This document shows positions 1,777 through 7,948 of a DNA stretch of 7,948 nt, piece after piece; the first letter of the stretch is position 1; every line of letters starts with the position of its first letter. Both the position numbers and the translations under genes were made by a program. This DNA is from Deltaproteobacteria bacterium RIFOXYA12_FULL_61_11 (GTDB taxonomy: Bacteria > Bdellovibrionota_F > JAHFAK01 > YA12-FULL-61-11). The stretch covers positions 1 through 7,948 of the forward strand of contig MGSU01000197.1 of assembly GCA_001799195.1 (NCBI GenBank), read 5' to 3'. The notes beneath the pieces are model-generated. The model was not told where the DNA came from. It searched no databases and saw nothing but the letters and a program-made list of their open reading frames with translations.

Positions 1777-1830
1777 CGCGGCTTCCCCCTCGCTTCCTGC
1801 GCTTTCCAAGACGCGGTCTGAGCAACGGTG

Positions 1831-3285
1831 ATGACCACCTCCAAGGGCAACATCCTGATCGTCGAGGACGAGCGGCTCATCGCCCTCGAACTCAAACACT
1901 CCCTCGAAGACCGGGGTTTCCGTTGCGCCGGTTTCGCCTCGAACGCGGACCAAGCCCTGGAGCTGGCCCGACGGCTCCGTCCTGACTTGGTACTCATGGA
2001 CATCAGGCTCGAAGGCCAGGGCGACGGCATCGGCGCGGCCAAGATCCTGCAACAGGAGCTCGGCCTCCCGGTCATCTTCCTCACCTCCCATTCCGACGAA
2101 ACCACGGTACGCCGGGCCGCAGAACTCGGCCCCTACGGTTACCTGCTGAAACCGATAGAAGAACATGAGCTCACCCTCGCCTTGGAGATGGCGCTCTCGA
2201 AGGCGCGCATGGAAACCGCCCTGCGCCGGCAGGAACGATGGTTGGCCACCACCTTGCGCAGCATTCGGGAGGCCGTTGTCTGTGCCGACAACACGGGCAA
2301 GGTCACCTTCCTTAATCCCGCTGCCTCGAACCTGCTGGGTTGGCAAGGCGATGAGGCCAAGGGGGAACCCCTCGGCAAGATCCTCGAGCTGATCGACGAG
2401 ACCACGGGCCGGAAACACGAGCCGTTCGTCGAGGTCTTCGCCGCTCCCACCAACCCCGAGGTCCGACTCTGCACCCACCTCTCCCTGCTCACGCGTGACG
2501 GCCGGCGGCTTCACGTGAGCGAGAGCATCGCTCCCATCACCGATGAAGACGGCACGCTGCTCGGCACGCTGGTCATCCTGCGCGACGTCTCGGCCGAGGT
2601 CCGCACCGAACGGGACTTCTTCGCGCAGCAGTTCGAGCGCATGTTGGCCCACCTCTCCGAGCTCGAGATCAACGGCAAGGTGTTGTTCGCAGAGGTACTC
2701 GGAGCCTTGGGTCCCGATCAGAAGGTGCTGGCAGGCACCGTGGTCGAAGCCTGTCGGGACCTTCGCTTCCTCACCAGTCGTCTGGCAGCGGTCCACCAGA
2801 GCAGCACCGAGGAAACGCCTGCGCCGAGAACCGCCGTGCAGCTCCAAACGTTGCTTCGCGAACTCCCGGAGGTGTTCCGCGGTCCAACGACGCGGAAAAA
2901 GATAGTCCTCGCTTTGGACCTACCCCAACAACCGATCACGGTCTCGGCCGAACGCGAGTTGCTGTGGTTCTTGATCGCCTCCCTGGTCGAGACCTTGCTC
3001 GAGAACTCTCCCCCGGTGTCCACGGTGAGAATCTCCCTCGCGGTCGAGCAGGGTGAAGGCCCACGGCTCGAACTCAGTAATCCCGAGTTGCGCATGACCC
3101 TGCCCTCCTCCCTCGAGGAACGTCCCCCCAGTGAAGAGGTGTGCGCCTTCCTGCTCACCCCGCAACAGGCGCGCTTCCACCACTTCCTGAGCACGATCGC
3201 TCGGCGGCACGGCCTCACCTTCGAGGTGCGCGATCACGCGGGGATCATCCTCAACGTTCCCGCCTCGATGATCCTCACACCCTGA
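1831..3285 (+). CDS. Receiver-PAS signalling protein with degenerate histidine-kinase-like C terminus
   Basis: 484-residue cytoplasmic protein; no signal peptide or membrane segment. Residues 5-125 are a complete CheY-like receiver: acidic E12/D13, phospho-acceptor D57 in LVLMDIRL, T85, and K107 in YLLKPI. A helical linker leads to a PAS domain at about 133-255 (WLATTLRSIREAVV, then FLNPAASNLLGW, ending APITDEDG..LGTLVILRDVS), the REC-PAS arrangement common in phosphorelay proteins that usually continue into a kinase. Here residues 262-484 have kinase-like helical then alpha/beta character but no HE(L/I)(R/K)xP or HRVKN phospho-acceptor box (H274 sits in AHLSELEIN), no clear Asn N-box (SLVETLLENSPP) and no DxGxG ATP lid. 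I infer a receiver-driven pseudokinase or output domain rather than an active kinase. The ATG at 1831 was chosen; GTG at 1828 is the only other nearby start, and neither has a good ribosome binding site. It follows the protease gene by 82 bases on the same strand, so co-transcription is possible. The 3' end overlaps the convergent RecU-like gene by 11 bp. Confidence 0.87.
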   Translation: MTTSKGNILIVEDERLIALELKHSLEDRGFRCAGFASNADQALELARRLRPDLVLMDIRLEGQGDGIGAAKILQQELGLPVIFLTSHSDETTVRRAAELGPYGYLLKPIEEHELTLALEMALSKARMETALRRQERWLATTLRSIREAVVCADNTGKVTFLNPAASNLLGWQGDEAKGEPLGKILELIDETTGRKHEPFVEVFAAPTNPEVRLCTHLSLLTRDGRRLHVSESIAPITDEDGTLLGTLVILRDVSAEVRTERDFFAQQFERMLAHLSELEINGKVLFAEVLGALGPDQKVLAGTVVEACRDLRFLTSRLAAVHQSSTEETPAPRTAVQLQTLLRELPEVFRGPTTRKKIVLALDLPQQPITVSAERELLWFLIASLVETLLENSPPVSTVRISLAVEQGEGPRLELSNPELRMTLPSSLEERPPSEEVCAFLLTPQQARFHHFLSTIARRHGLTFEVRDHAGIILNVPASMILTP

Positions 3286-3913
3286 GGGCCGTCGGGAGTC
3301 GCAAGCCCGACATACCCACACCGTACCTTCCTTCCAGGCGGTCGAGCGCGGCGAGATAATCGAGGACGACGAGCCCCGTACCCGGGCGTACGGGCTCGAG
3401 TATCTCGTGCAAGACGTCCAGCCCGAGGCTACGACGCCTTGCACCTCCGGTCTCCGGTGCGATGAGCTGAATAGGGACGAAAAAAACTTCCTCGGAGCGG
3501 GAGAACTCGACCAGGAAGCCGGCCAGTGCTCCCATCGCGGCGACCCGGCGCAGGTAGGCGACCTGGTGGGGATGGAGGTTGTCATAGTCTATTCTGCCGC
3601 GCTTCGTGCTCTTGGCATCGAAAAAAATCGCTCGACCCTGGGGAGCGAGTACGCCACCGTAATCCGGCTCGGCCTTGGACTCGGGCACGAACAACCTGAG
3701 CTCGCCACCGTCGGCGATCTGTCCGTTCAGGGCCAGGACTTCAGCGCTCGGCGAGAGCCTGCGGCCGCGACGTTGCAAGAACCTGCCAGGTACGGCCTTG
3801 CGGGTGATCACCGCGCGACCCGTTTGTTCATAGCCCTGATTGATCAGGTCGACCAGACCTTGGAAGCGCCCCCCGACCTCGCGACCGGCAAGACCTTGGC
3901 GCGCTCCGCTCAC
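3275..3913 (-). CDS. RecU-like Holliday junction resolvase / PBP-related factor A family
   Basis: 212 residues, close to Bacillus RecU (about 206). RecU dimers cut four-way DNA junctions in recombination, using a metal site of the restriction-endonuclease fold. Visible family features: the N-terminal GREVGGRFQ..VDLINQGYEQTGRAVITRK.VPG (10-43), KAEPDYGGVL (80-89) with catalytic Asp84, FFDAKST (97-103) with Asp99 and Lys101 forming the D...(D/E)xK metal site, and NLHPHQVAYL (112-121). Then follows a hydrophobic GALAGFLVEF strand and a FVPIQLI segment like the family's aromatic C-terminal half. It lacks the long N-terminal tail of the Bacillus protein and has an insert at about 46-79 before the first catalytic Asp. 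The GTG start at 3913 is supported by a GAGAGG site (3924-3919) 5 nt upstream and a 4-nt overlap with the glycosyltransferase stop, implying translational coupling. The link to glycosyltransferases is unusual; B. subtilis recU is instead linked to the penicillin-binding protein gene ponA. A role in mobile-element or repair biology is possible. Confidence 0.85.
   Translation of the reverse strand: MSGARQGLAGREVGGRFQGLVDLINQGYEQTGRAVITRKAVPGRFLQRRGRRLSPSAEVLALNGQIADGGELRLFVPESKAEPDYGGVLAPQGRAIFFDAKSTKRGRIDYDNLHPHQVAYLRRVAAMGALAGFLVEFSRSEEVFFVPIQLIAPETGGARRRSLGLDVLHEILEPVRPGTGLVVLDYLAALDRLEGRYGVGMSGLRLPTALRV
3370..3398. other. GC-rich hairpin inside the 3' part of the RecU-like gene
   Basis: CGAGCCC (3370-3376) pairs with GGGCTCG (3392-3398) and GTAC (3378-3381) with GTAC (3388-3391). 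This gives an 11-bp stem with one bulged base (3377) and a 6-nt loop, CCGGGC. It lies about 85 bases past the end of the converging receiver/PAS gene and could slow or end read-through from that side. It has no U-tract, so intrinsic termination is doubtful and it may simply reflect coding sequence. Confidence 0.25.
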
Positions 3914-5468: not shown

Positions 5469-7948
5469 TCAGGTGTGTTGTAATTCGTTCTTCAGCCGGA
5501 GCAACAGTTTTTTCGCTTTTCCCATTTTCCCGAGCTGCATGTAGGTCTCGCTGAGGCGGAAGACCACGTCGACCATCCCGGGTTGCAGAGCGAGCCCTCG
5601 TTCATAACTTGCCGCCGCTGCTTCGTGATCGCTCAACGTGGCGTAGAGCTCGCCCAGATCGAAGTGACAGGCGGCATTGTCAGGATCGAGCGTGGTCATG
5701 AGCCTCAGGGCACCGAGAGCGGCCTGAGTCAACCCCTTCCCGTGGTACCAGGTTATCAGTTGGGTGAGCCGCTCCAACGAGGGGACTCCGTGCGGCACAT
5801 CGCCCTCTTCGATCACCCTGCGGGGGAACTTGTCCGCCAGGGCGCAACCCGCGCAGCACTGAAGGGGAGTGGTACTCAGTGCGAGCTGCTGCCTCCTCAC
5901 TTCCTGCATGGTCGCTCCGGACCAGAACTCCAAGAGGGTCGTACTGGTGACCGACCCGAACGCCGGAAGAGCCTGGGCTCGCAAGGCGGGCCAACAGGGC
6001 AGGTACCTGCCGTCGGTCGCCAGGGTGAGGGAGTAAAAGGGACAAAGACAGGGGGTTCCTGAATGAGCCTGCGCAGGCTCTCGCGCGGCCACCGCGACCC
6101 CTGCTTTGAGGGAGCTGTTCGAGAGCACCGAAGAATAGCTCCCGGCCAACAATCGATGGGCCTCGAGGAAACCCAACTCATCGTCCTCGCACGTCGCGAA
6201 GTAGAGGTCGAGCTTGAGCTCCCTGCCCGGTTCCAGACGTTCTCCGAAACGGGAGAGCCTCTCGAGCCACTCGGGGGTGGGCTCCGGGACGATCAGGGAA
6301 AGCCGGTCCAGATCACTGTACATGAGCCGGTCAAGGCTACCCTCGGGTTCGTCCAGACCGAGGTCCAGGACCACCTCGCAGATACGGTGGCCCTTACAGG
6401 CCTTGACGTCATTGACATAGAGGTCCAGGTCCACGGTGCCCAGGGCCGCGCCGTGCCCGGCGAGGACGACCTTCAGGCCGTGGTCCTCGGGGAACTGGTC
6501 GAGTACTTCGTGGAAGAGCTTGAGGTCGAGCACTCCGGACTCACCCGCGACCTGGCATTGAAGCAGGGTGGGCAACCCGGGGCCGAGGTACAGCCTCCGA
6601 GCCGTGGGGCGCCAATCGCGCAAGAGCCCCGCGTACTTCTTCTCGAACGGCACGTCGCGGTCGAGTCGTTCGAGCAGCCGGTACGCGTCCTGGAACTGCC
6701 CCAGGTTCTTCGCCGCGATGGCCTGCTGGAAGTGAGCCTCAAAACGCTCCCGGCAGTAACGGGAGAAGCGCAAGGCGACGTTCAGGGCCTCTTTGTGGTA
6801 GCCGATGGTGATAAGCAGATTGACCGCACTCATGTAGGGCAAGGCAAGGAGCTGCTGGCAGACCATGGCTTCGCTCAGGTGGCCGAGGCTCTCGAAGTTG
6901 TTCTTGCGCAAAAAATAGAGGCTGCCGAGGTAGTATTGGGCCAGGGCCGAGGAAGGCCGGACCGCCAGGATCTGTTCGAAAGCCCTGCGGGCTTCTTCCT
7001 CGTGATCGCGGTTGAACAGGTTGATGGCGCGGATGAGTTCGAGTACCTCCTCCAGGGGGTGTTCCGGAAACTCCACGAGCACGTTCTCGACCAACAATGC
7101 GTCGAGGATACCTAACTCCGCGACCTCGAGTGCATCCGAGAGGTACGAACTGGCCAATTCGAAATTACGGGAGAGGTTCAGGTGCAAGACGGTCTGTTCG
7201 GGCACCCCTGCGAGGACGGCCTTATACCAGGGTACATCGATCGTACGGAGATCCCTGGCCGTCCAGGGAGCCTCGACCTCCTGGGGCAACCTGTCCAAGT
7301 GGTCTATGAAAGGACCGAGCAAGGTACGCCGTTCGGGATCGCGGTCGAGGAAGAAGCCCTGGGCCGTGGCCGAGAACAGCGCGGTGAGCCGTGCTTGCTG
7401 CTCGGGAAGGGCGAGGATGGAGCGCTGCCCCAGCTCGGCCATGGTCGTGGCGGCTCTCCCCCGCAAGACCCCGACCACCTTGCCCGCCCGGAGCAGAGCG
7501 CAGACCTTCGCCACGGGGTCTTCGACGATCGTGGCCTCGGGGAATTGCTCGTGCAACAACTCGGTGTAATCCCTCGGCAACGAACCGCCGAGCATCGCTC
7601 CGAGGCTGCCGTCGCTCGCCCTCATCGTCCCGAACACGGCGTACTTCCGGCAGGCAGCAGGATGGTACTGGGCCTCGGGCAGTAACCAACTCGAACCCAG
7701 ATTGCCGGTGTAGGCTACTGAAGTTGCCTGCAAACCGAGCAGTTCCACCACCGTACCGAAGGTCGCGACGACAAAGGGCAACCCCCACCCCAGGACTTCC
7801 TCGGGAGACCTCCCCTCGAGGTCGGCGAGTAAGCCCGAGGGCAGTAGGACGGGTTCGTCCAGCCCGACCTCGGTCAGGGAAGCTCTCGCATCGCGAGGTG
7901 TCAGGGTGAGAGCCGTGCGGTCGAGGACAAGATGCCGGCAGAAGGGAT
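5469..7948 (-). CDS. TPR protein with degenerate radical-SAM-like barrel and SPASM-type domain (5' end outside window)
   Basis: The frame stays open to the right edge: 55 more codons precede the TTG at 7781 with no stop and no ATG, GTG or TTG, so 825 residues are visible and the start lies outside. Visible residues 1-300 are an unrecognised alpha/beta region. About 300-435 are TPR-like helical repeats (e.g. EEEARRAFEQILAVRPSSALAQ). About 452-600 follow a radical-SAM barrel outline: LPTLLQCQV (Cys464) where the cluster motif should begin, a helix, VVLAGHGAAL (493-502) where GGEPLL is expected, a VVLDLGL strand, and DLDRLSLIVPEPTPE where the LDxLxVSLDG segment is expected. CxxxCxxC is absent. 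Residues 633-701 look like a SPASM auxiliary-cluster domain: Cys635, Gly646-x4-Cys651, an FGSVTSTTLLEFW segment, and Cys698-x2-Cys701. The rest (about 726-825) is further TPR ending in a basic helix. It is probably a cytoplasmic scaffold or Fe-S protein rather than an active radical enzyme; the barrel assignment is by pattern only. It leads the operon with the dual glycosyltransferase 5 nt downstream. Confidence 0.82.
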   Translation of the reverse strand, partial: PFCRHLVLDRTALTLTPRDARASLTEVGLDEPVLLPSGLLADLEGRSPEEVLGWGLPFVVATFGTVVELLGLQATSVAYTGNLGSSWLLPEAQYHPAACRKYAVFGTMRASDGSLGAMLGGSLPRDYTELLHEQFPEATIVEDPVAKVCALLRAGKVVGVLRGRAATTMAELGQRSILALPEQQARLTALFSATAQGFFLDRDPERRTLLGPFIDHLDRLPQEVEAPWTARDLRTIDVPWYKAVLAGVPEQTVLHLNLSRNFELASSYLSDALEVAELGILDALLVENVLVEFPEHPLEEVLELIRAINLFNRDHEEEARRAFEQILAVRPSSALAQYYLGSLYFLRKNNFESLGHLSEAMVCQQLLALPYMSAVNLLITIGYHKEALNVALRFSRYCRERFEAHFQQAIAAKNLGQFQDAYRLLERLDRDVPFEKKYAGLLRDWRPTARRLYLGPGLPTLLQCQVAGESGVLDLKLFHEVLDQFPEDHGLKVVLAGHGAALGTVDLDLYVNDVKACKGHRICEVVLDLGLDEPEGSLDRLMYSDLDRLSLIVPEPTPEWLERLSRFGERLEPGRELKLDLYFATCEDDELGFLEAHRLLAGSYSSVLSNSSLKAGVAVAAREPAQAHSGTPCLCPFYSLTLATDGRYLPCWPALRAQALPAFGSVTSTTLLEFWSGATMQEVRRQQLALSTTPLQCCAGCALADKFPRRVIEEGDVPHGVPSLERLTQLITWYHGKGLTQAALGALRLMTTLDPDNAACHFDLGELYATLSDHEAAAASYERGLALQPGMVDVVFRLSETYMQLGKMGKAKKLLLRLKNELQHT

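Follow-up and report, generated by a model that had tools for sequence, protein, structure and literature searches.

A TPR-flanked protein joining an inactivated radical-SAM-type barrel and a carbamoyltransferase remnant, encoded beside a dual glycosyltransferase

Introduction

Pseudoenzymes are well known among kinases and proteases, and a search of a largely open-access body of literature returned no description of an inactive radical-SAM barrel. In the SPASM radical-SAM enzymes the motif of the auxiliary domain comprises seven cysteines, and twitch domains are shortened versions of it that bind one cluster (PMC6231123). The role of the twitch cluster is not yet settled even for active enzymes (PMC9012708), and a natural protein with an auxiliary Fe-S site but without a SAM-cleaving site would allow the cluster's own role to be addressed.

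The 825-residue protein described here resembles the twitch radical-SAM enzymes BtrN and SpeY in the succession of a barrel and a C...GX4C...CX2C auxiliary site, BtrN being its best structural match, but it lacks both the CxxxCxxC and the GEP motifs, sits between TPR repeats and is fused to a carbamoyltransferase remnant. With SPASM enzymes such as anSME, PqqE and SuiB it has in common the first half of the SPASM motif and a PF13186 match, but not the second half (CX5CX3C...C), so that it can hold one cluster at most. Its N-terminal part corresponds to the C-terminal part of the O-carbamoyltransferases NodU, CmcH, TobZ and GdmN, aligning with three paralogues that this genome encodes and weakly with GdmN; unlike these enzymes, it has lost the GDAG, GPRALG and RESFRPFAP motifs and continues into TPR repeats and a dead barrel. 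A fourth comparison is offered by Planctomycete dual GT2-TPR enzymes, in which the TPRs are fused to the glycosyltransferase itself, whereas here they lie within the pseudoenzyme encoded by the adjacent gene. We tentatively regard the protein as a pseudoenzyme scaffold, in which a dead carbamoyltransferase and a dead twitch radical-SAM module, flanked by TPRs and probably holding a cluster, serve the neighbouring glycosyltransferase; this reading is given slightly less than an even chance.

Gene context

The window, that is, the whole stretch of DNA analysed, is 7948 bp long and makes up the entire contig MGSU01000197.1 of a draft genome of 4.64 Mb (87% complete). Three of its genes are tightly packed on the minus strand:

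5469..7946, minus strand: multidomain protein, 825 residues, open frame with its 5' end open at the contig end
3910..5463, minus strand: dual GT2 glycosyltransferase, with PF00535 in two stretches and PF13704 at 279-359
3275..3913, minus strand: RecU-like nuclease (PF03838, E 1.7e-16), with a 4-bp overlap with the end of the glycosyltransferase gene

The N-terminus of the multidomain protein is missing because its frame runs off the contig end. The glycosyltransferase gene begins 5 bp after the end of the multidomain gene (5469 to 5463), and it apparently forms one operon with the nuclease gene, the product of which belongs to the RecU-like Holliday-junction resolvase family; RecU is best known from Firmicutes. 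The plus strand carries a papain-family (C1) cysteine protease, probably secreted and with a weak Big_7 Ig-like match (225-1748), and a protein with a response regulator receiver and a PAS domain, the C-terminal part of which has no Pfam match (1828-3285). No PADLOC match to a defence system was obtained for the multidomain protein or for the glycosyltransferase.

The 825-residue frame shows a position-specific GC content of 0.67/0.43/0.79, typical for the genes of the window, and a coding-like codon-position composition over most of its segments. The short twitch segment is the exception, with a raised second codon position, which fits the Cys/Pro/Ser/Thr-rich sequence found there. With the frame open and the composition coding-like, a frame error or a pseudogene was judged unlikely.

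Domain organization

The order of domains is dead carbamoyltransferase, TPR, dead barrel, twitch and TPR, all on the minus strand:

7062..7946, minus strand: C-terminal remnant of a NodU/CmcH-type O-carbamoyltransferase, residues 1-295 (hhalign, PF16861; significant alignment from residue 102)
6657..7061, minus strand: first TPR set, residues ~296-430 (Pfam; best stretches TPR_16 at 317-349 and TPR_6 at 403-428)
6087..6599, minus strand: inactivated radical-SAM partial barrel, residues ~450-620 (hhalign with controls, structure models and VIA-align)
5841..6050, minus strand: twitch (half-SPASM) domain, residues 633-702 (PF13186 and hhalign)
5478..5765, minus strand: second TPR set, residues 728-823 (Pfam TPR_19, TPR_2)

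The TPR matches exceed the Pfam cut-off (TPR_19, E 6.6e-14; TPR_2, 2.7e-11; TPR_16, 5.3e-11). An earlier note on this DNA had described the architecture as TPR, dead barrel, SPASM and TPR; the TPRs do flank the central region, but a second dead enzyme, the carbamoyltransferase ahead of the first TPR set, had been missed. The protein is both real and unusual: its folds are known, but their arrangement is new, and two of them are inactivated.

The inactivated barrel

Two sites within the barrel are diagnostic of its state:

6555..6557, minus strand: Cys464, the sole cysteine in the place of CxxxCxxC (cysteine census, alignment)
6441..6461, minus strand: AGHGAAL, residues 496-502, in the place of the GEP-type SAM-binding loop (alignment)

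The cysteine census found no CxxxCxxC anywhere in the 825 residues. With this motif absent and AGHGAAL standing in the GEP loop, the canonical radical-SAM cluster cannot form, and an active radical-SAM enzyme was therefore rejected. The earlier note had already reported the loss of the cluster motif, the lone Cys464 and the altered loop, all of which are present as claimed.

The nature of the fold was assessed by profile comparison and by modelling. When barrel and twitch were compared together with ten radical-SAM/SPASM proteins, hhalign returned an E value of 2.8e-15, with most of the signal coming from the twitch domain. The barrel alone scored 27.8 (P 0.0025) against the radical-SAM profile, whereas 200 shuffled versions did not exceed 22.3, and 29.7 against a wider profile of 14 sequences, compared with 24.8 for the best of 191 natural fragments drawn from proteins without CxxxCxxC; this best fragment itself lies in a genuine B12-type radical-SAM protein, the motif of which is masked in the record. 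The single-sequence AlphaFold model displays alternating strands and helices at a mean pLDDT of 44, and in VIA-align its first rank is viperin (Z 7.6); viperin and EpeE, at Z 7.0-7.6, are tied with other folds, and given this tie and the low confidence the model was set aside as proof of fold. The second model was built from a four-sequence alignment of the barrel protein with three true radical-SAM proteins of locus L053. It matched BtrN with Z 13.2 and an r.m.s.d. of 3.8 over 199 residues; its best 28 entries were all radical-SAM proteins, the next entry having Z 6.9. Since true radical-SAM sequences entered the alignment and the mean pLDDT is 54, this model supports rather than proves a radical-SAM fold.

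An alternative would confine the radical-SAM origin to the twitch domain and assign residues 450-620 to another alpha/beta fold. Residues 440-618 have no Pfam match and PF04055 is not matched at all, neither in the multidomain protein with E values up to 10 nor in a six-frame search of its own genome; the barrel alone reaches an hhalign probability of only 12-24; and Foldseek, with no E value below 0.001 for either model, lists a mixture of TIM-barrel and Rossmann matches. On the other hand, the barrel score exceeds those of all shuffles and natural fragments, the GEP loop aligns with AGHGAAL, behind which the twitch domain follows at a plausible distance, colinear in order and spacing, and a radical-SAM protein takes rank 1 in VIA-align for both models. 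We therefore hold another fold to be quite improbable and interpret residues ~450-620 as a radical-SAM-type partial barrel and a pseudoenzyme, for which the BtrN match provides support of moderate strength. The radical-SAM-like barrel that the earlier note had placed at residues 452-600 is thus supported by the profile comparison with its controls and by a structure model.

The four-cysteine twitch site

PF13186 (SPASM) matches residues 633-701 with an E value of 3.4e-6, over its curated cut-off, and the putative cluster ligands, all identified by alignment, are as follows:

6048..6050, minus strand: Cys633, putative first ligand
5994..5996, minus strand: Cys651, putative second ligand (Gly646-x4-Cys651)
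5844..5855, minus strand: Cys698-x2-Cys701, putative third and fourth ligands

The pattern Cys633-x12-Gly646-x4-Cys651...Cys698-x2-Cys701 fits C-X9-15-G-X4-C...C-X2-C, and the columns of Cys633, Cys651, Cys698 and Cys701 are invariant in all ten aligned sequences (radical-SAM/SPASM proteins). Cys635 is an extra cysteine; it had been proposed earlier as the first ligand, a position that the invariant column assigns to Cys633, while the remainder of the proposed site, Gly646-x4-Cys651 and Cys698-x2-Cys701, was confirmed. Likewise, the earlier SPASM label is justified by the PF13186 match and by the kept auxiliary-cluster site, but has to be narrowed: only the first four cysteines of the seven-cysteine motif CX9-15GX4C-CX2CX5CX3C-C are present, and the next cysteine after 701, at position 760, already lies in the TPRs. 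With the second half absent, a full SPASM domain was rejected, and the segment is therefore a twitch domain.

The retention of all four ligands in a protein whose SAM site is gone could also indicate a redox adaptor, with the twitch cluster exchanging electrons with the genome's radical-SAM enzymes and the dead barrel serving as a docking platform only. The genome, with 135 radical-SAM matches, would offer partners, and for PapB it has been proposed that auxiliary clusters mediate intermolecular electron transfer (PMC10470005). However, the contig carries no radical-SAM gene at all, and auxiliary clusters of the BtrN type have a full set of ligands and a low potential (PMC9012708), and we consider such an adaptor unlikely, although not strongly so.

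The carbamoyltransferase remnant

When the N-terminal 300 residues were compared with three carbamoyltransferases encoded elsewhere in the genome, hhalign gave a score of 58.3 (P 2.8e-7; aligned residues 102-293), against maxima of 24.6 for shuffles and 25.1 for natural fragments; the signal lies mostly within residues 141-200. PF16861, the carbamoyltransferase C-terminus, was matched with E 8.8e-4, below its cut-off, and phmmer found GdmN at the same motif without significance (E 0.38). In the alignment with the carbamoyltransferases the metal-ligand region QPASGDAG reads HPAACRKY, so that CRKY replaces GDAG, and GPRALG is replaced by TMAELG. In the same alignment GPRALGNRSILADPR becomes TMAELGQRSILALPEQ, and EWGPRALGNRSILADPR becomes ATTMAELGQRSILALPEQ. 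The stretch RESFRPFAP is missing, while RSILA and TAR remain. From the loss of GDAG, GPRALG and RESFRPFAP it follows that the active site is lost in the present part of the module, to which this reading applies, the N-terminal half with the metal-binding histidines lying beyond the contig end. A search of the same genome with PF02543 for the missing 5' half gave four matches, all of which failed to fit it.

The residues that are retained, namely RSILA, TAR and parts of the carbamoyltransferase core, would be compatible with a protein that is still an enzyme but of another chemistry, in which one of the two folds, barrel or carbamoyltransferase remnant, would bind a substrate or nucleotide but form no radical. 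Against this, neither fold retains its catalytic and cofactor-binding motifs in the present part and no alternative active-site signature was seen, which leaves this option little probability.

Search for relatives

No full-length relative was found in the own genome and its phylum (two genomes), in 386 genomes across the domain queried with the barrel-twitch part and then with the N-terminal part, in three further phyla, viral contigs, plasmids and phages, or in two pattern scans of 84,980 species genomes, which detect close relatives only, so that distant ones may exist. Everything recovered was either an ordinary radical-SAM/SPASM protein or a TPR match. The single match of the second pattern scan, a protein of locus L053, was rejected as a relative because its CxxxCxxC is intact, as was a 459-residue radical-SAM/SPASM protein of the same genome (contig C214), an ordinary paralogue with CxxxCxxC.

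The strong divergence and the lack of relatives, together with the loss of catalytic motifs in two adjacent modules, might suggest an evolutionary relic: carbamoyltransferase and radical-SAM enzymes, both then active, would once have been fused, and the product would now be in decay and without function. Yet the 825 codons are open with a coding-like composition, the four cluster cysteines are kept at the expected spacing and the gene is tightly paired with that of an apparently intact dual glycosyltransferase, all of which makes a relic improbable.

The neighbouring glycosyltransferase and the proposed role

Planctomycete homologues of the dual glycosyltransferase (CP151671, NZ_CP011275) are 34-35% identical to it over 458 residues and carry TPRs at the C-terminus. 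The glycosyltransferase of the window has no such fused TPR, and the adjoining multidomain protein carries TPRs; the Planctomycete fusions thus hint at a joint function of TPR and glycosyltransferase. One Planctomycete plasmid protein (NZ_CP011275.1, locus L078, 7438-11448) is built from a GT1-type glycosyltransferase, a methyltransferase and two GT2 domains together with TPRs, and a radical-SAM gene lies close to it.

At the deltaproteobacterial locus L053 (JAFGLY010000106.1) a carbamoyltransferase gene adjoins a radical-SAM/SPASM gene, and glycosyltransferase genes lie in that stretch as well (names read from translations), which suggests that both enzyme types can share one pathway. The cluster at 1973-18260 of this locus encodes the carbamoyltransferase, several radical-SAM/SPASM enzymes, an aminotransferase-like protein and glycosyltransferases, and has the appearance of a pathway for a glycan or a natural product.

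In the scaffold reading introduced above, TPR repeats link and bracket the two inactivated modules, an O-carbamoyltransferase and a twitch-type radical-SAM module. The four twitch cysteines would probably bind a single [4Fe-4S] cluster that stabilizes the fold or relays electrons, while the TPR arms and the dead folds would bind partner proteins, foremost the dual GT2 glycosyltransferase, and glycan or peptide substrates would thereby reach working enzymes. The sequence shows the domain identities, the loss of catalytic motifs in the present part, the retained cysteines and the close gene pair, whereas cluster binding, a physical association with the glycosyltransferase and the function as a scaffold are inferred; weighing against them are the failure to find a homologue and the low confidence of both models (mean pLDDT 44 and 54).

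Radical-SAM proteins elsewhere in the genome

The 135 PF04055 (Radical_SAM) matches, nearly all over the curated cut-off, are an extreme load for a genome of 4.64 Mb at 87% completeness. One of its proteins, of 1368 residues (contig C137, locus L061, 2853-6959, minus strand), resembles the window protein in having an inactivated radical-SAM barrel within a long multidomain chain. Its barrel, at residues ~330-510, is of the B12 type and lacks CxxxCxxC (P 9.4e-9, score 63.3 against a shuffle maximum of 28.6); a second, B12-like segment is weakly supported (P 7e-4, score 34.3 against 26.7), and an intact radical-SAM/SPASM enzyme follows the two. The C137 protein thus differs from the window protein in barrel subfamily and in being fused to an intact enzyme, and its N-terminal 900 residues gave no match to the carbamoyltransferase profile.

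Taken with the window protein, it indicates that an inactivated radical-SAM module occurs in a long protein at least twice in this genome. It is possible, but rather doubtful, that the lineage reuses dead radical-SAM and carbamoyltransferase folds as non-catalytic modules for docking, substrate presentation or electron relay within long assembly-line-like proteins, of which these two would be independent examples.

Many of the PF04055 matches sit in multidomain proteins. Contig C41 (locus L068; 113-2623, plus strand) encodes an 836-residue fusion of a glycosyltransferase (group 1/family 4 type) with radical-SAM and SPASM domains, contig C139 (locus L063; 1255-3834, plus strand) a B12-binding radical-SAM protein fused to a GT2 glycosyltransferase, and contigs C280 and C151 double radical-SAM proteins.
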